64,000 bases of DNA, taken from Sulfitobacter pontiacus. Lineage in GTDB: Bacteria > Pseudomonadota > Alphaproteobacteria > Rhodobacterales > Rhodobacteraceae. Where the stretch lies: NCBI RefSeq assembly GCF_040790665.1, contig NZ_CP160849.1:2381501-2445500 (forward strand). The letters run 5' to 3'. Below, piece by piece: positions 29,074-59,340 of this stretch (its first letter is position 1; each line of letters opens with the position of its first letter). A program made the translations under genes and the position numbers. The notes below the pieces were generated by a model that did no database searches, was not told where the DNA came from, and was given only the letters and a program-made list of their open reading frames with translations.

Positions 29074-29163
29074 GGAGGAGTGGCAGAGTGGTCGAATGCA
29101 CTGGTCTTGAAAACCAGCGTGCGTGAGAGCGTACCGTGGGTTCGAATCCCACCTCCTCCGCCA
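29074..29163 (+). tRNA. tRNA-Ser(UGA)
   Basis: 90-nt class II tRNA with acceptor stem GGAGGAG / CTCCTCC, discriminator G and encoded CCA. The anticodon loop CTTGAAA gives anticodon TGA. A long variable arm (GCGTGCGTGAGAGCGTACC) confirms the serine type. Its 3' end (29150-29164) is the attachment core of the integrated element that follows, and the gene stays intact. Confidence 0.98.
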
Positions 29164-29164
29164 T
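29150..29164 (+). repeat. attL: left attachment repeat
   Basis: CACCTCCTCCGCCAT, the last 14 bases of tRNA-Ser plus one base; identical to 34859-34873. Confidence 0.88.
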
Positions 29165-32792: not shown

Positions 32793-33518
32793 CTACGGCC
32801 TTTTCTTCGGGCCTCTCTTGGAGAGGCTGGGGACGGCGGTTGTCGCTTGTTTCCATACTGCACGCCAAGACTCGGTGTTTAGATCAGCTGCCAGTTCTCG
32901 TTTAACTTCATCGCGAACCACGGGCTCACCACTTTTCGCGCGCTTGATTATCTCTAAGACAATCTCGTTTGTATCAATTTCCATTTGCGGCGTCTCACGT
33001 CGCGATGCTGGAAAACTAATGATTGCGTCTAGTTCATCTTGGTTCTTTGGTCCGTCTTGCTCTTCGAAGGTGAGATAGCCTCCTTCTAAACATTGAAACT
33101 TGTCGGCAAGATTTCTTAGAAATCTATTGGGATAAACTGGACCATCTCCCGTTGGCCTTTCTCCTAGAACTCGCCCCAAAAGACCGTTCATTCGTCTGCG
33201 GTGGCGCTTGTATATTGATGGAACGATTTGACCCGTAGAAGGATTTACGAATGCAAATTTGCTGACCAGTCTTCTCTTAGTGGAATGGCCTTGGATGTAG
33301 ATACAAACATCAGGCGTAATTTTGAATAGCCTTCCATCAGGGAAAAACACTGAAAGCGACGGACAATCACGCAAAAACGCAGAGGTCTTCATCAGTGCGA
33401 AATTATGGGCCAAGTCACTACGCCTCTTTCGTAGATCATCGGACATTTGATCTGAGACGCGCGAAAAAATTTCAAATTGGAAATTGCTAACGACAACGTA
33501 ACCTTTGGGTGCAATCAT
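32793..33518 (-). CDS. Orphan protein of unknown function coupled to the integrase
   Basis: 241-residue protein with no recognised domain, AT-richer than the integrase before it. It starts at ATG 33518, overlapping the integrase stop as ATGA, so it is co-translated with the integrase. It is basic and has no membrane span; visible pieces are the LRKRRSDLAHNFALMKTSAF helix near residues 28-47, a beta-rich middle (VFFPDGRLFKITPDVCIYIQ), a Lys/Arg-rich PSIYKRHRRRMNGLLGRVLG and a basic C-terminus (SLSKRGPKKRP). It could be cargo or an accessory recombination factor; position alone does not decide. Confidence 0.55.
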   Translation of the reverse strand: MIAPKGYVVVSNFQFEIFSRVSDQMSDDLRKRRSDLAHNFALMKTSAFLRDCPSLSVFFPDGRLFKITPDVCIYIQGHSTKRRLVSKFAFVNPSTGQIVPSIYKRHRRRMNGLLGRVLGERPTGDGPVYPNRFLRNLADKFQCLEGGYLTFEEQDGPKNQDELDAIISFPASRRETPQMEIDTNEIVLEIIKRAKSGEPVVRDEVKRELAADLNTESWRAVWKQATTAVPSLSKRGPKKRP

Positions 33519-34738
33519 CGATTCAGCCTAATTAGATTCGAATTTTCAACGCCTAAAGTGATACTCCATCGTTCCATCAGCTTCCTGCGTTTGTCAAAGA
33601 AATCCGACCGCGCATAAGCCGCCTCCGCCTTGTCCTTAACCGTATGGGCCAGCGCCGCCTCTGCTACGTCGCGGGGCGTGTTGGTGCGTTCTTGGGTCCA
33701 TGTCTTGAACGAGGTGCGAAACCCATGCACGTCCACGTCGTAGCCCAGCGCCTTGGTCAGCTTCGATAGCGTCATGTCAGACAGCGGCTTGCCGTGTTTG
33801 GTGCCGGGGAACACCAGACCATCGCCTGACCCAAATTTGCGGGCCTGTGACAGCACCTCAACAGCGCGGGGCGACAAGGGGACGCGATGCTCTTTCTTGG
33901 CTTTCATGCGGTGCGCTGGGCGCGTCCAGATGGCTTGGTCCAGATCAAACTCAGACCATTCCGCCAAACGCACCTCACCAGACCGTGACGCTGTTAAAAT
34001 AACTAGTTCTAACGCCAGCTTGGTGACGTCCCCCGCGTCCGATGCTTTCAGAGCGTCGAGAAATTCTGGCACCTTGCCATAGGGCAGGGCTTTGCGATGC
34101 GCTTGCGTCTTGTCCTGTTTGGGCAGAGCTTGGGCGATAGCGTCCGCAGGGTTGTCTTGCCGCCATCCGTTTGCCACGGCCCATTTCATCACGGTGCCGA
34201 TGCGTTGGCGCACCCGCCGCGCCGTTTCGGGTTTTTCCAGCCATATGGGTTGTAACACGGCCAGCACGTCCGCCGTTGTGACTTCGGACACCTTCAACTT
34301 GCCGATGCGGGGGAAAGTGTAGGTTTCGAGCGTCGATATGAATTGCGCCGCGTGTTTCTTGTTGCGCCATGTCGGTTCGTGGATCTTGTGCACCTTGCGC
34401 GATGCCTCCTCAAACGTCAGCAAAGCCTCTGAGGTGCGTTTTGATTGCAGGGGGTCGCCACCCGCCCGCGCCAGCTTGCGGTTCTGCAAGGCGGCTTCCC
34501 GCGCCTCTGCCAAGGTGACAAGCGATGCGCTACCCATGCCTATCTCGGTGCGCTTGCCGCGTATCATGATGCGCTGCACCCAACGCTTCGCGCCTGAGGT
34601 ATCGACCTTAAGAAACAGGCCGTGGCCGTCGGTGTACTTACCGGGGGCGGTGACGGTGCGCACAAATGCAGCGGACAGCGCCTTCTCCGCCCGCTTGCTT
34701 GGTTCGGTTCGTTCGATTGCTCTTTTCACGTCCGCCAT
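33515..34738 (-). CDS. int: P4-type tyrosine integrase
   Basis: 407-residue site-specific recombinase. The N-terminal arm-binding domain has GKYTDGHGLFLKVDTSGAKR, the usual DUF4102 pattern. The catalytic residues are visible as Arg in ILTASRSGEVRLAEW, the HxxR box as HGFRTSFKTW, and the nucleophile Tyr in AEAAYARSDFFDKRRKLM. The start MADVKRAIER at 34738 has GGGGGA five bases upstream; ATG 34750 is possible. It lies 86-121 bases from attR and targets tRNA-Ser(UGA). A 10-bp inverted repeat overlaps the start region. Confidence 0.95.
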   Translation of the reverse strand: MADVKRAIERTEPSKRAEKALSAAFVRTVTAPGKYTDGHGLFLKVDTSGAKRWVQRIMIRGKRTEIGMGSASLVTLAEAREAALQNRKLARAGGDPLQSKRTSEALLTFEEASRKVHKIHEPTWRNKKHAAQFISTLETYTFPRIGKLKVSEVTTADVLAVLQPIWLEKPETARRVRQRIGTVMKWAVANGWRQDNPADAIAQALPKQDKTQAHRKALPYGKVPEFLDALKASDAGDVTKLALELVILTASRSGEVRLAEWSEFDLDQAIWTRPAHRMKAKKEHRVPLSPRAVEVLSQARKFGSGDGLVFPGTKHGKPLSDMTLSKLTKALGYDVDVHGFRTSFKTWTQERTNTPRDVAEAALAHTVKDKAEAAYARSDFFDKRRKLMERWSITLGVENSNLIRLNR

Positions 34739-34740
34739 TC

Positions 34741-34773
34741 CGTCCCCCATTATTATCTGGAATATGGGGGACG
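34741..34773. promoter_or_regulatory. 10-bp inverted repeat over the integrase translation start
   Basis: CGTCCCCCAT at 34741-34750 and ATGGGGGACG at 34764-34773, perfect arms, 13-nt spacer. In the mRNA this hairpin would pair the GGGGGA Shine-Dalgarno sequence and the ATG at 34750, so it could repress integrase translation. As DNA it could be an operator. The octamer GTCCCCCA is also found near attL, at about 29219. Confidence 0.45.
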
Positions 34774-34858
34774 ACAATGGAACAATCAAGACTTAGATGG
34801 GGTCTAAGTTACTGAATGTAGTAATTTACTGGAATGGGTTGGAATGCACGTCGGCGGA

Positions 34859-34873
34859 CACCTCCTCCGCCAT
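34859..34873 (+). repeat. attR: right attachment repeat
   Basis: CACCTCCTCCGCCAT, identical to the 3' end of tRNA-Ser at 29150-29164. It marks the right edge of the element; chromosomal sequence resumes with the phytase-like gene. Confidence 0.88.
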
Positions 34874-34912
34874 TATCCCACCTATCCATCGCGCCTCTCC
34901 CCAATTCCGCGC

Positions 34913-34952
34913 CTGTCGTGGAACCGTCACCTTTGCGTTACGCGGCTGTTAC
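34913..34952 (+). promoter_or_regulatory. Tandem Pho box upstream of the phytase-like gene
   Basis: Four PhoB-type half-sites in exact 11-bp phase: CTGTCGT (34913), CCGTCAC (34924), GCGTTAC (34935) and CTGTTAC (34946), each followed by four spacer bases. The consensus half-site is CTGTCAT. They end 41 bases before the start codon. Confidence 0.65.
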
Positions 34953-34993
34953 CAGAATCGCGGATCAGGGGCCGTCTTTAACGGAGAGCCCTT

Positions 34994-36337
34994 ATGAAAC
35001 ACCCTATTTTTCCCCTTGCCGTGTCCCTTCTTGCCGTCCCCGCTGCCGCGCAAGAGACGTTTGATGCCACGCTTGCGGGCCATGCCTACCTGCCTGCGCT
35101 GAGCCTTGTCGCGCCGCCTGCGGATGCGCCGAAGGATGCGTGGATCAGCGGTAAATTCACGGGTGGCGCGCGCAATGGCGTGCCGATGTCGGTGCCGGGC
35201 GATACGGGCGGGCTGCATGGTAAACGGCTGACGGGGCTGAACCTGCCCTTCATTGGCCAGCCGTTGCAGGGGTTTTCCGGTTTCGCGATGAACCGTGCCG
35301 AGGATGGGTCGGTCTATGTACTGACGGACAACGGCTTTGGCTCAAAGGCGAACAGCCCCGATACGCTGTTGTTCTTCAGCCGGATGGACGCTGATTTCGA
35401 CACAGGCGAGGTCGAGATCAAGGAAACCGTTTTTCTGCATGATCCCGATTTCAAAGTGCCCTTCCGCATTTCCTATGGCGGGACCGACAGCCGCTATCTG
35501 ACCGGCGCGGATTTCGATCTGGAGAGCATCCAGCGCGTTGGCGACAGCATCTGGATCGGCGAGGAGTTCGGCCCCTATCTGATCGAGGCCACATTGGACG
35601 GGCGGATCAAGGGCGTCTATCCGACGATGGTGGATGGTGTTCAACTGAAAGGGCCGGACACGCCCGGTATCTCGGCCACATCGGTGAAGGGGACGGATTG
35701 GACGGTGCCACGCTCGGGCGGGTACGAGGGCATGGCGCTGCAGCCTGAAACGGGTTTGCTGTGGGCCATGCTCGAGAAACCTCTGCTGGCTGCGAGCGGC
35801 GAGAACGAAGGTGATTTCCTGCGCGTCATGGCCTTTGACCCCGAGGCACGCGACTGGACGGGCGAGGGCTTCAAGTTCAAGCTGGCCGAAGGGGCCACGG
35901 CGATCGGTGACTTCAACTTCATCGACGAGACCCGCGCGCTGGTGATCGAGCGTGACAATGGCGAGGGCGAGCCTTCGTTGAAATGCGCCGGTGACCCGCA
36001 GGCAGATTGTTTCCCGAACCCCGCGATGGTCAAGCATGTGGTTCTGATCGATACCGCCGATGTGGATGCCGAGGGCTATGTGCGCCGCATTGGTCAGATC
36101 GACCTGATGAACATCGCCGACCCCGAGGGGAAGGCCCGCATCGAAACCGATGGCGGCGAGGCAGGGCGGTTCAGCCTGCCGTTCTTCACCATCGAGGACG
36201 TGATGCGGGTGGACGAGACGCACATCATGGTCGCCGTGGACAACAACCTGCCGTTCTCATCCGGGCGCAAGCTGGATGCCGCTGCGGATAACGAAGTGGT
36301 GCTGCTGAGCGTGCCCGAACTGCTGGCCGCGCAGTAA
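34994..36337 (+). CDS. Secreted esterase-like/phytase-like protein
   Basis: 447-residue exported protein of the phytase-like family (PF13449 type, a predicted beta-propeller). The signal peptide is residues 1-19 (VPAAAQE). Typical stretches are LPFIGQPLQGFSGFAMN, YVLTDNGFGSKANSPD, WIGEEFGPYLIEA, and GGYEGMALQPETGLLWAMLE. Members are annotated as esterase-like; some relatives act on phosphoesters, but activity is rarely tested. The tandem Pho box upstream suggests a role in phosphate scavenging from organic phosphate. A hairpin terminator follows the stop. Confidence 0.8.
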   Translation: MKHPIFPLAVSLLAVPAAAQETFDATLAGHAYLPALSLVAPPADAPKDAWISGKFTGGARNGVPMSVPGDTGGLHGKRLTGLNLPFIGQPLQGFSGFAMNRAEDGSVYVLTDNGFGSKANSPDTLLFFSRMDADFDTGEVEIKETVFLHDPDFKVPFRISYGGTDSRYLTGADFDLESIQRVGDSIWIGEEFGPYLIEATLDGRIKGVYPTMVDGVQLKGPDTPGISATSVKGTDWTVPRSGGYEGMALQPETGLLWAMLEKPLLAASGENEGDFLRVMAFDPEARDWTGEGFKFKLAEGATAIGDFNFIDETRALVIERDNGEGEPSLKCAGDPQADCFPNPAMVKHVVLIDTADVDAEGYVRRIGQIDLMNIADPEGKARIETDGGEAGRFSLPFFTIEDVMRVDETHIMVAVDNNLPFSSGRKLDAAADNEVVLLSVPELLAAQ

Positions 36338-36341
36338 CCTG

Positions 36342-36379
36342 ACGCGCCCCTGTCGGCAGAGCATGCCGAGGGGGCGTTT
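36342..36379 (+). terminator. Terminator after the phytase-like gene
   Basis: Stem of TCGGCA / TGCCGA extended by CCCC / GGGG, followed by CGTTTC. It lies immediately after the stop codon and has a small bulge. Confidence 0.55.
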
Positions 36380-36413
36380 CACACCCTAGACAGACCCTAG
36401 GCCCCGCCATTGC

Positions 36414-36575: not shown

Positions 36576-37691
36576 ATGACGTTTCAGATCGGCATTGGCC
36601 CGAATAATCGCAAATCCGCCTATTTCGATGCGACCGTCGCAGAGGGTGTGGCTTGTTTCTCGGTCTATAATCACATGTTCATACCAGCGCATTTCGGCGA
36701 CCCCGAGGGGGAATATGACGCGCTGATGAACGGGGTGGCCATGTGGGATGTCGCGGCGCAGCGGCAGGTCGAACTGTCCGGGCCGGATGCGGCGCGGCTG
36801 ATCCAGTATCTGACCACGCGCGATATGTCGAAAACCCGGATCGGGCAGGGGCGCTATGTGCCCATGTGTGACCATCAGGGGCGGCTTATCAACGACCCCG
36901 TGCTGCTCATGCTGGCGCAGGATCGCTATTGGCTGTCGATTGCGGACAGTGACATCGTTCTATGGGCCAGCGCCATCGGGGCAGAGCGCGGGTGGGACGT
37001 GACCGTGGCTGAGCCAGACGTCTCCCCGCTGGCGGTTCAGGGCCCCAAGGCCGAGGCGGTGATCACCGCGCTGTTCGGCGACTGGGTGCGTGATCTGAGG
37101 TATTTCGGCTTCAAGCAAACGCAGCTGGGGGATATCCCGCTGGTGCTGGCGCGGTCGGGCTGGTCGAAACAGGGCGGCTTCGAACTGTATCTCCAGGACA
37201 GCAGCCGCGGGGGGGAGCTATGGGCAAAGGTAAAGGCCGCAGGCGCGCCCTTTGGCATCCGCCCCGGTGCGCCCAATGACGTTGAACGGATCGAAAGCGG
37301 ACTGGTGTCCTATGGGGCGGATGGGCGTCTTCAGACCAACCCCTGCACCCCGTATGGCATCGGCCTGGGCAAGCTGGTCGATCTTGAGACCCCGGAGGAT
37401 TTTATCGGCAAAGAGGCGCTGCGCCGCATCGCCGATGAAGGCGCGCAACGGGAAAGGTCAGGCTTTGTCATCGCGGGCGCGCCACTGACGGGGGCGGGCC
37501 ATTCGATCCCCGTGCTGGACGATAAAGGCCAGCCGCGCGGTGTGCTTAGCGACTACGTCTATTCCAAACGTTTCAAGGCCAATATCGGCGTCGGGATGAT
37601 CGCATCGGATGCAAAGCAAGCGTCGCTCCACGTCGTCATCGGGGACGAGGCCCGCAACGTAACCCTGGGCAGCCTGCCATTTGACAGCTGA
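36576..37691 (+). CDS. DmdA-like GcvT-family tetrahydrofolate-dependent demethylase
   Basis: 371-residue aminomethyltransferase-fold protein. The pattern VYNHMFIP ... VAMWDVAAQRQVELSGPDA ... YVPMCDHQGRLINDPV ... YWLSIADSD ... PDVSPLAVQGPKAE ... VLARSGWSKQGGFELYLQ ... PNDVERIESGLLSYG-like is the arrangement I associate with dimethylsulfoniopropionate demethylase DmdA and its close paralogues rather than glycine-cleavage GcvT. No gcvH or gcvP is adjacent. DmdA moves a methyl group from DMSP to tetrahydrofolate. Paralogues of unknown substrate are common in the Roseobacter group, so the gene symbol is withheld. Start 36576 has AAAAGGATC upstream. Confidence 0.75.
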   Translation: MTFQIGIGPNNRKSAYFDATVAEGVACFSVYNHMFIPAHFGDPEGEYDALMNGVAMWDVAAQRQVELSGPDAARLIQYLTTRDMSKTRIGQGRYVPMCDHQGRLINDPVLLMLAQDRYWLSIADSDIVLWASAIGAERGWDVTVAEPDVSPLAVQGPKAEAVITALFGDWVRDLRYFGFKQTQLGDIPLVLARSGWSKQGGFELYLQDSSRGGELWAKVKAAGAPFGIRPGAPNDVERIESGLVSYGADGRLQTNPCTPYGIGLGKLVDLETPEDFIGKEALRRIADEGAQRERSGFVIAGAPLTGAGHSIPVLDDKGQPRGVLSDYVYSKRFKANIGVGMIASDAKQASLHVVIGDEARNVTLGSLPFDS

Positions 37692-37712: not shown

Positions 37713-38588
37713 CTATGGCAGGATGACCCGCACGCCGGGAATTTCCTGAATGCGCGCAACGTCTTCGTCGTAAACCTCGGTCATCTCTTCGACCAGTTCT
37801 TCGGTCCAGCTGGGCATGTCCAGCTCTTCCTCGAGCGCGTCGTCGATCACGTATTTGTCCAGAAACGCCGCGATCACACGCGGGTGCTCTGCCGTTGTCA
37901 TCTCGGGGTGGGAGGCGAGATAGGATTTGAACCGTTTCATGCCTTCGGGGCGCATGATCGTTTCCAGCAGGTCGAATTCCCCGTCCAACGGCGCCATCGT
38001 GGGCAGGCCCGCCATCTCGCGCATGATCTGCCCCCAGATCAGGGGGGCGTCTTCGTTGCACCATACGGTCACGGGAATCTCGGGCGCAGAATCACGTAGC
38101 AGCGCCAGCGTGTCGGACCAACGCACATCCAGCGGATCCTTGTCGCCCCAGAACTGTGGCGGAGATTTGTCGGCCGACACATCATAGAGCACCGGCAGCA
38201 GGGTCGCGGGATTGCGGATGCCCATGAAAATCTGCAGTTCATCCTCGGGGAAAAGCTGCGCCATGCGCATCATCCGCACAGGGGCGGCGGGATAAAGCAT
38301 CCCTTCAACAACCGCCGTCGCAGGGGTGCGAAAGAAGTTCGCGTCGGAAAAGATCACCCGATCCGCGTCAGAATCTCCCATGACCGCGTCCAGCAAGACA
38401 TCCCGCGCCCCGTCCGAGGCGGATGTTTTATACATCGCATTCAACGTATCGCGAAACAAACCACGATAGGTTGCGGGGCTCGGCACATGGGTGCCCGCCT
38501 GCGTCAAAAGATCGTGGTTCGACTGGAGGCTTTTCAGCAGCCTGTCTTCTTCGGTGTAATGGGCACCTGTGTGCAAAATCAACTGCAT
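37713..38588 (-). CDS. Unknown protein, sulfotransferase-like N-terminus
   Basis: 291-residue cytoplasmic protein. The N-terminus MQLILHTGAHYTEEDRLLKS mimics the first beta-strand and P-loop (LHxGxHKTGT) of PAPS-dependent sulfotransferases, but the Lys and Thr are replaced. Later segments such as IFSDANFFRTP and EDELQIFMGIRNPATLLPVLY also parallel the sulfotransferase core (including the IRNP box). The C-terminus is acidic. It may be an inactive or divergent member. The start at 38588 is preferred over a 23-residue extension. Convergent with the DmdA-like gene. Confidence 0.5.
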   Translation of the reverse strand: MQLILHTGAHYTEEDRLLKSLQSNHDLLTQAGTHVPSPATYRGLFRDTLNAMYKTSASDGARDVLLDAVMGDSDADRVIFSDANFFRTPATAVVEGMLYPAAPVRMMRMAQLFPEDELQIFMGIRNPATLLPVLYDVSADKSPPQFWGDKDPLDVRWSDTLALLRDSAPEIPVTVWCNEDAPLIWGQIMREMAGLPTMAPLDGEFDLLETIMRPEGMKRFKSYLASHPEMTTAEHPRVIAAFLDKYVIDDALEEELDMPSWTEELVEEMTEVYDEDVARIQEIPGVRVILP

Positions 38589-57183: not shown

Positions 57184-59214
57184 TCAGGCGGCGATCTTGC
57201 CGCCGCCCTGTTTGGTGACCACAACCACCGCCGGGCGGGGGGGCATCTTGGGGTCAAAATCGGGCCAGCGCGTGGCGGGATCTTCAAAGGTGCTTTCACG
57301 CTCGAACCCGGGGATGTTCTTGGTCCCGTCCGTGCCGGGGTGTTGCACGGCGACAAACAGCGTCTCGCCGTCGTCGGTAAAGTAGGGGCCGCACATCTCT
57401 CCGCCGACGGGGCAGCGGAAGAACAGCTTGGACGTGCCGCGCGCCTCGCCTTCGGTTTCGACCGCATAGAGCCCGTCCGACTTGCCCGTCTTGGCCCAGT
57501 TGCTGCCCTGATCCGTGCTGACCCACAGGCGGCCATCGGCGTCGATGGCGCAGTTGTCGGGGCTGCCGAACCACCCGTTTTCAGAGGTTTCGGGGTTCCA
57601 TTGTGCGCCCACGTCCGACACCGACGGATCGCCGCATCTCACAAGGATCGACCAGCGCCCCTGCGTTGCCGCGTGGTTGCCGCCGTCTTCCTTGATCTCG
57701 ATGATGTGGCCAAAGCTGCTGTCGGCACGCGGGTTGGCGGCGTTCACCTCATCCTCTGTGCGTTTTGTGTTGTTTGTCAGCATGATATAGGCCGTGCCGT
57801 CGCCACGGGGCTGCGCGTCTTCGGGGCGGTCCATCGGGGTCGCGCCCAGCAGATCGGCCGCGATCCGCGTGTCGATCATCACGTCGCCTTGATCATTGAA
57901 GCCGTTTTCAGCCGTCAGCGGGCCTGTGCCGTGGGTCAGGGGCAGCCAGGTCACCGTGCCATCTTCGTCAAAGCGCGCGACATAAAGCGTGCCATCGCTC
58001 AGCAGTTTGGCGTTGGCCGCCCGGTCGTCCGAGACCTTGCCCCCCGAGACGTATTTATACTGGTAATCAAAGCGGTTGTCGTCGCCCATATAGATCACCA
58101 GACGCCCGTCACTGCTGACCGTGGTTTCCGCACCTTCGTGGCGGAAGCGGCCCAAAGCGGTGTGTTTGACGGGGGTAGAGGTCGGGTCCATCGGGTCCAC
58201 CTCGACCACCCAGCCGAATTTATTGGGGGCGAGGGGTTCTTTATCGATGTTGAAACGGTCGTATTGCGCGCCCCAGGCGTACCACATGCCCGGCACGCCA
58301 TAGCGTTTGTAGGACGCGGCTTCGGGATGGTCATCGGCGATCACGGGTTTGCCGTCGGCGTCGAGCTGGTCGCTCCAGAAATAGCCGTGGAAGTTCTCCT
58401 CGGCCATGAGCCACGTCCCCCAAGGGGTCAGCCCGCCCGCGCAGTTGTTCAGCGTGCCGATCACATTCACCCCGTCGGGGTCGTCGTTGGTCTTCATCCG
58501 CGCATGGCCCGCGGCGGGGCCGTCGATGGTCATCGCGGTGTCCAGCGGGGTGATGCGGCGGTTCATCTTGCCGTCGCGCACCACCTGCCATACCCCGGCG
58601 TCGTCCTTGGCGATTTCGACCACCGAACCACCGTGGGCGGCCATTTCAATGTCGATCAGCGCGGGCGTCATGCCGGAAAACTGGGCGCGGTCCTGACGGC
58701 CAAGTCCGGGGAACATCACCTCTTCGTTGGTGTATTCGTGGTTCACACAAAGTAAGCCACGGCTGCCATCGTCATTCAGCGGGACAAAGCCCACGTAGTC
58801 ATTGTTATAGCCGAACTGCTTGAGCTGCGCCGCCGCGGTCTGGTTCATCACGTCGAATTCGGGCGCGTCGGCGGTGATCGGATCGCCCCACCGCAGCAGC
58901 ACATTGGCGTCATAGCCATCGGCCACATGGTGGGTTTCGTCATTGCCCCATGCCAGTTCGTCAAAGACATAGCGGCTGTCAGCGGTGGCGGCACTTGCCT
59001 GACGCGGTGCGACCATCGCCGAGGTGCCGAACAATGCGGTTGTCGCCGTGACCCCCAGCATGCCGCGCAAGATGTCGCGGCGTCCGTAGCGCGCGTTGAT
59101 CACATCGCCGATGGTGCGCTGCAGATTGGGGTTGGTGGGGATGTCGTCGAAGGCTTCAAAGGCTTCGGCCTTGTTGCCGATTTCGGGATCATCGAGGATT
59201 TGGCGACGTGTCAT
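57184..59214 (-). CDS. phoX: PhoX family alkaline phosphatase
   Basis: 676-residue DUF839/PhoX phosphatase, a calcium- and iron-dependent phosphomonoesterase common in marine bacteria. A Tat signal is seen as GRRDILRGMLGVTATTALFG (about residues 44-63), placed after an unusually long N-terminal lead. Characteristic segments are LRWGDPI, FVPLNDDGSRGLLCVNHEYT (Glu/His metal ligands), NCAGGLTPWGTWLMAEENFH with the core Cys, and GRFRHEGAETTVSSDGRLVIYMGDD (partly quoted). A near-perfect Pho box lies about 110 bases upstream, so it should be induced by phosphate starvation. Confidence 0.93.
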   Translation of the reverse strand: MTRRQILDDPEIGNKAEAFEAFDDIPTNPNLQRTIGDVINARYGRRDILRGMLGVTATTALFGTSAMVAPRQASAATADSRYVFDELAWGNDETHHVADGYDANVLLRWGDPITADAPEFDVMNQTAAAQLKQFGYNNDYVGFVPLNDDGSRGLLCVNHEYTNEEVMFPGLGRQDRAQFSGMTPALIDIEMAAHGGSVVEIAKDDAGVWQVVRDGKMNRRITPLDTAMTIDGPAAGHARMKTNDDPDGVNVIGTLNNCAGGLTPWGTWLMAEENFHGYFWSDQLDADGKPVIADDHPEAASYKRYGVPGMWYAWGAQYDRFNIDKEPLAPNKFGWVVEVDPMDPTSTPVKHTALGRFRHEGAETTVSSDGRLVIYMGDDNRFDYQYKYVSGGKVSDDRAANAKLLSDGTLYVARFDEDGTVTWLPLTHGTGPLTAENGFNDQGDVMIDTRIAADLLGATPMDRPEDAQPRGDGTAYIMLTNNTKRTEDEVNAANPRADSSFGHIIEIKEDGGNHAATQGRWSILVRCGDPSVSDVGAQWNPETSENGWFGSPDNCAIDADGRLWVSTDQGSNWAKTGKSDGLYAVETEGEARGTSKLFFRCPVGGEMCGPYFTDDGETLFVAVQHPGTDGTKNIPGFERESTFEDPATRWPDFDPKMPPRPAVVVVTKQGGGKIAA

Positions 59215-59322
59215 GGCTATTCCTTTATTGTGTCGGGCATTGCCTCTGGCATTGCGTTTGGCGAGGTGACTCGCGGTTGCGCCTTATGTCGTCGCGATGT
59301 GCTACAAATGTGTTCCGCTTTG

Positions 59323-59340
59323 ATGACAGTTCTGTGACAG
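59323..59340 (-). promoter_or_regulatory. Pho box upstream of phoX
   Basis: On the minus strand, CTGTCAC-AGAA-CTGTCAT: two half-sites with 11-bp phase and only one mismatch to the CTGTCAT consensus. It is followed by CAAAG and sits about 110 bases before the phoX start. The rest of 59215-59581 shows no other gene and must also hold the clpP promoter. Confidence 0.8.

Follow-up and report, generated by a model that had tools for sequence, protein, structure and literature searches.

The locus analysed here raises the question of whether a gene for a secreted phytase-like protein in Sulfitobacter pontiacus takes part in the phosphate-starvation response, as the preliminary description of this DNA had proposed from four PhoB half-sites in exact 11-bp spacing upstream of it. 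In the window (the whole stretch of 64,000 nucleotides that was analysed), this gene occupies positions 34994..36337 on the + strand and encodes a protein of 447 aa, assigned by Pfam to PF13449 ('esterase-like activity of phytase'), a family with a vague name and mostly unassigned activity, and modelled as a beta-propeller. As set out below, control of this gene by PhoB is strongly supported by sequence, the proposed place in the phosphate-starvation response being supported by the conservation of the array in orthologs and by the recurrence of its motif upstream of phoX, pstS and phnC. Positions 34913-34952 are very probably a complete PhoB operator with the core promoter of the secreted PF13449 protein, which would serve phosphate scavenging.

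Inspection of the sequence located the four half-sites at the positions previously given, namely CTGTCGT (34913-34919), CCGTCAC (34924-34930), GCGTTAC (34935-34941) and CTGTTAC (34946-34952), with a step of exactly 11 bases between successive units. This array, read on the + strand at 34913..34952 as a PhoB-type operator from the sequence, the ortholog motif and a pattern count, lies 41 bases before the PF13449 gene, the distance from the box end to the ATG being 40 or 41 depending on the end chosen. Head-to-tail repetition of TGTCA-like half-sites in steps of 11 bases is a mark of the Pho regulon, and the Pho boxes of Proteobacteria are described as direct repeat units of 11 bases, seven of which are conserved and the other four less so (PMC4415409). 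Proteobacterial Pho promoters share with the array the 11-base repeat unit and the TGTCA core, whereas the units found here, in a GC-rich group, are more mixed (about TGTYRY).

Whether four such units could have come together by chance in GC-rich DNA depends on how they are counted. A search with the paired consensus CTGTCATN4CTGTCAT, allowing at most three mismatches, found four matches in the window against 3.5 expected; this is the chance level, and the paired-half-site search was rejected as evidence. However, four YGTYRY units in 11-base phase occur once in 256,001 bases on both strands (the window and ten stretches of its own genome), against 2.6e-4 expected from the frequency of the single unit, a value that is optimistic as the pattern was written after the site had been seen. 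Because this pattern was shaped on the site, an independent test was sought in a motif learned de novo from orthologs with the window excluded. A matrix of textbook half-site frequencies had given suggestive but mixed ortholog scores and was superseded by the de novo motif; on this matrix the third half-site is weak (0.5 bits), and the third unit is poorly conserved in the ortholog motif as well.

As orthologs, the best 80 of 214 relatives from public genomes were taken (63 to 87% identical), and expectation maximisation with a width of 40 was run on the upstream regions of 77 of these, three near-duplicates being dropped and the window excluded. The motif obtained without any prior consensus consists of four TGTCAY units in 11-base phase, with a log-likelihood ratio of 866 as compared to 155, 160 and 157 in three dinucleotide-shuffled sets (40 random starts for the real set and 15 for each shuffled set). 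On both strands of the window its top site falls at 34914 (32.9 bits), and the second-best non-overlapping site, at 59339 on the - strand (22.7 bits), is the phoX promoter. In four-fold cross-validation over all 80 orthologs, the held-out site outscored every one of 20 mononucleotide shuffles in 79, and it scored at least 15 bits in 71 and at least 20 bits in 49; three orthologs stayed below 15 bits even with the motif that they had helped to train. Conservation of the half-sites in orthologous promoters, the check that the preliminary description had named, is hence borne out by the 79 promoters that beat their shuffles and the 71 that reach 15 bits. With position and sequence both conserved, a chance origin of the array is refuted by the de novo motif and the held-out scoring, and its probability is negligible.

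The array extends to homologs in Sinorhizobium meliloti and Paracoccus denitrificans (in strain PD1222, PDEN_RS23665, locus L197), both with four-site arrays upstream that none of 500 shuffles equalled. The PF13449 homolog of an S. meliloti strain is 48% identical to the window protein and, judged by gene order, may be SMc00620. For two more distant members of PF13449, one from an Escherichia plasmid and one from Gloeothece, an array was looked for upstream and none was found, so that a link to PhoB does not hold for the whole family. On an Escherichia coli plasmid carrying phage tail genes, a PF13449 gene (L196:5914-7257) lies between two IS1 transposase genes, and 14 of the 64 plasmid records with a match are from Escherichia. 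One locus (L026) is labelled Bacillus subtilis, yet it groups among Brucellaceae in a quick tree and points to a mixed or mislabelled assembly, and the 3.7-Mb record behind another (L195) is labelled pSymB and, from its size, looks chromosomal.

The motif is read as that of PhoB because it finds phoX, pstS and phnC, all of the same genome, such shared marking of phosphate genes being a further sign of a Pho regulon. The phoX alkaline phosphatase gene (57184..59214, - strand; PF05787, 542 bits) lies in the window itself, and its operator (59300..59340, - strand), found as the second-best non-overlapping match, serves as an internal positive control. When nine 20-kb stretches of the same genome were scanned (180 kb, 359,298 positions), only one match of at least 15 bits was found; it scores 20.7 bits (L167:3577) and starts 76 bases before phnC, which is followed by phnD, the products PhnC and PhnD both being above their curated cut-offs. 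In the pst stretch, read as phoR-pstSCAB-phoU-phoB, the best match (20.0 bits) lies at the pstS promoter. A second match (15.4 bits) lies near the pst locus at L161:948 on the - strand. The genome's PhoB is above its curated cut-off (343 against 296 bits), while the best family of PhoR is phoR_proteo at 309 bits, below the cut-off of 334, and PstS likewise has its own family as best match below the cut-off; pstC is above its cut-off, and pstA, pstB and phoU were identified by eye. On this basis both PhoB and PhoR were counted as present in the genome.

In E. coli, phoA, phoB, pstS, phoE and phnC are PhoB targets. Applied to the K-12 strain, the half-site model ranked the phoA promoter first and the phoB promoter second in 18 kb, pstS first in 6 kb and phoE third in its stretch, and it missed phnC. 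These targets bear on the reading that the array is used by another OmpR-family regulator, such as CenR, ChvI or a similar protein, in response to envelope or acid stress. OmpR-family regulators often bind direct repeats, and for CenR of Rhodobacter sphaeroides the cited passage gives TGA-N8-TGA, with a 10-bp step by the count of that paper (PMC9275681). The core found here is, however, TGTCAY and not TGA-N8-TGA, and the ortholog motif marks the canonical phosphate genes, phoX, pstS and phnC of the same genome as well as phoA, phoB and pstS of E. coli, which makes use by such a regulator very improbable as compared to use by PhoB.

Results from phoX promoters across the genus are mixed and count against the PhoB reading. 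Thirty loci were located by tblastn and fetched, the one of the window included, and two partial ones were dropped; 13 of the remaining 28 promoters exceed the 99% control level with a four-site model and 16 with two sites. It seems that many phoX promoters of the genus have a smaller number of units or have them in other places. In the upstream regions of L132-L153, many have only one good half-site pair, at about -63 to -69 and often ending in TGTGACA, in contrast to the four-unit form.

Upstream of the PF13449 gene, a consensus scan of the + strand detected no -35/-10 pair of the sigma-70 type. Of the orthologs (77, the three of 80 below 15 bits being excluded), 58 have the dinucleotide TA at an offset of exactly 10 nt from the last half-site, as compared to 0 to 3 at each of 39 other offsets, and in another 12 it is replaced by GA (four) or CA (eight, including Hoeflea, the nearest relative). 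TA occurs at the same 10-nt spacing upstream of the genome's own pstS and phnC and in E. coli phoA, and it was read from the sequence at 10 nt in the S. meliloti and P. denitrificans homologs. We take this TA as the likely -10, with the operator substituting for the -35 in such promoters. From the box end to the start codon, the orthologs have a median distance of 49 (quartiles 47-51, range 34-152, n=77), with start codons set by a rule of our own. In the window, the presumed -10 element GATCAG (34963..34968, + strand) begins exactly 10 nt beyond the last half-site, a spacing shared with E. coli phoA, and a probable ribosome-binding site read from the sequence, GGAG (34983..34986, + strand), lies 7 nt before the ATG.

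Unlike most orthologs and E. coli phoA, the window copy has GA and not TA at the start of the -10 element, which also counts against the PhoB reading. It would fit a real operator whose copy here is weak or silent, the -10 having drifted after transfer with poor expression in the present host, and such a history is in keeping with the lack of a match to the gene in all 35 other genomes of the genus that were searched. GA is nevertheless found in the phoX promoter of the same genome and in four of the 77 orthologs, CA takes its place in eight, the half-sites at 32.9 bits outscore those of the genome's own phoX, pstS and phnC, and the reading frame is intact, so that a weak or silent copy is rather unlikely. 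At the other end of the gene, a strong RNA hairpin (36340..36381, + strand; -29 kcal/mol, z -4.7) follows just after the stop codon; it is a possible end of a one-gene transcript with a weak T tail, and a terminator scan gave no terminator at this hairpin.

The product of the gene matches PF13449 at 168.7 bits against a gathering cut-off of 27.6 (residues 89-418), and a Sec-type signal peptide was called by eye. Within E values up to 0.001, no Pfam family besides PF13449 was found, and the model of Bacillus-type beta-propeller phytase was not matched. A good structure model was obtained (mean pLDDT 88.6, 35 sequences). The first fold search returned only a generic list of propellers, while a structural aligner gave as best folds the glutaminyl cyclase 3mbr (Z 20.4, rmsd 2.5, 220 residues aligned) and the YjiK domain 3qqz (Z 20.3). 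The Bacillus beta-propeller phytase 1poo shares the propeller fold (Z 14.1, rmsd 4.6, 248 aligned), but it is not the top match and is one among many propellers below 3mbr and 3qqz. The propeller of the modelled protein resembles glutaminyl cyclases more closely than it does the phytase of Bacillus. A search for sequence relatives with a solved structure gave none at E values up to 1, and invariant acidic, Arg and Lys residues are plentiful in the alignment. A phytase mechanism does not follow from these fold matches, and a shared propeller does not show function. PhoX, which resembles the phytase-like protein in having a PhoB-type operator within the same window, differs from it in showing no profile similarity (hhalign probability 0.3%, with shallow alignments). 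The caution voiced earlier about the enzyme activity is retained, since neither fold nor sequence comparison assigns a substrate.

Reports on proteins of similar description come from other groups, and the likeness rests on that description and, for Nodularia, on the family name. According to the passages cited, Nodularia nsp7010, which shares the family name, increases when phosphate is limiting (PMC9846622); in co-culture, a phytase-like protein of Synechococcus WH8102 is up 3.2-fold, alongside three alkaline phosphatases (PMC4949707); SMc00620 of S. meliloti, described as a 'phytase-type phosphodiesterase', has more connections than any other gene in a phosphate-stress network (PMC8829014); and the PhoB regulon of Caulobacter includes a phytase (PMC11208175). 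These passages give no operator for any of the four genes. On the other side, phytases of pseudomonads are reported, in the passage cited, not to be regulated by PhoBR (PMC5082522), which counts against a general link.

The position of the operator next to an integrated element raises the further question of where the gene came from. The element carries a tyrosine integrase gene (33515..34789, - strand, by profile match) and is bounded by a 15-base direct repeat, of which the left copy (attL, 29150..29164, + strand), found by tRNA and repeat search, is the 3' end of tRNA-Ser(TGA) at 29074-29163, and the right copy (attR, CACCTCCTCCGCCAT, 34859..34873, + strand) marks the right end. An integrase, together with flanking direct copies of the tRNA 3' end, identifies it as a tRNA-targeting integrative element. 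The operator starts 40 bases past 34873, with 39 bases between it and the right end of the element. The preliminary description had put this distance at about 40 bases and had held that insertion left the site intact, and both points agree with a repeat that ends at 34873 and with blastn homology to a sister genome (G012) that stops at 34875. This sister genome has a like element at the same tRNA-Ser, and its homology resumes at 37714; the phytase gene and its GcvT-like neighbour are missing at this place, where other DNA, probably integrated, is found. Beside tRNA-Ser(TGA), G012 (L118, L126) has several segments, as compared to the one element in the window. Integrase-like genes number at least two among these segments, of which one is homologous to that of the window and one was recognised by eye, and the site is an integration hotspot. 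The GcvT-like gene that adjoins the phytase gene (36576-37691) has DMSP demethylase as its best NCBIfam match (366 bits, below the cut-off of 410).

A search of 35 other genomes of the same genus, a few of them incomplete and the genus holding more, gave no match to the PF13449 gene, and in a family-wide sample a match at E 1e-60 or better was found in 20 of 295 genomes, the window's own included. The nearest protein relative, 87% identical, is encoded in a genome that bears the name Hoeflea marina (Rhizobiaceae); in a quick tree it is sister to the window protein with full support, and its upstream region also has an array (24.3 bits, held out). Because none of these 35 genomes has a match, gene and promoter were probably acquired together, as far as can be judged from sequence comparison. 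The element would later have inserted between the gene and tRNA-Ser, leaving the operator uncut.

A bolder reading joins the operator, the gene and the hairpin into a compact single-gene cassette for phosphate scavenging, about 1.5 kb long, which would move among alphaproteobacteria with its own PhoB switch and often settle beside tRNA genes. In this case the operator would, before the element came, have begun about 40 bases after tRNA-Ser. In three Paracoccus loci (L020:2292-4005, L031:2131-3947 and L034:2316-3957) a phytase-like gene lies between identical copies of tRNA-Gly(GCC) spaced about 1.6-1.7 kb apart, and in L034 the tRNA is close before the promoter, with only two of the four half-sites readable. 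Two further orthologs lie on the same strand a few hundred bases downstream of a tRNA-Glu gene (L036:2167-2241) and a tRNA-Val gene (L041:2066-2140). Orthologs beside a tRNA thus number five of 80 loci, leaving aside L008 with tRNA-His 1.2 kb upstream, by plain count. Both the cassette and the former closeness to tRNA-Ser are doubtful.

Taking the more firmly supported parts together, we infer that PhoB binds the array and induces the gene, and that the gene serves to scavenge phosphate. Under phosphate shortage, PhoB in its phosphorylated form would occupy all four half-sites of the 11-base array as two dimers placed head to tail, and PhoB on this array would replace the missing -35 box and bring RNA polymerase to the -10 element located 10 nt downstream. 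The protein would then be exported and would probably help to release phosphate from an organic phosphorus compound. A switch of this type is familiar, and the unusual part is modest, consisting in the placing, through a rigid promoter layout, of a vague protein family in the alphaproteobacterial Pho regulon, and in a PhoB switch that seems to travel with its gene. Yuan et al. in 2006 reportedly predicted PhoB sites for S. meliloti and twelve proteobacteria, and an operator of this kind may have been predicted there before; for Rhodobacterales, no report of a PhoB operator before a PF13449 gene was found in the open-licence literature searched. The architecture kept across orthologs of Rhodobacterales and Rhizobiales would make this clade of PF13449 a part of the response to phosphate starvation, and its substrate may be sought among extracellular organic phosphorus compounds. 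For S. pontiacus, the findings suggest that a PhoB switch travelled together with its gene into a genus without other carriers among the 35 genomes searched.
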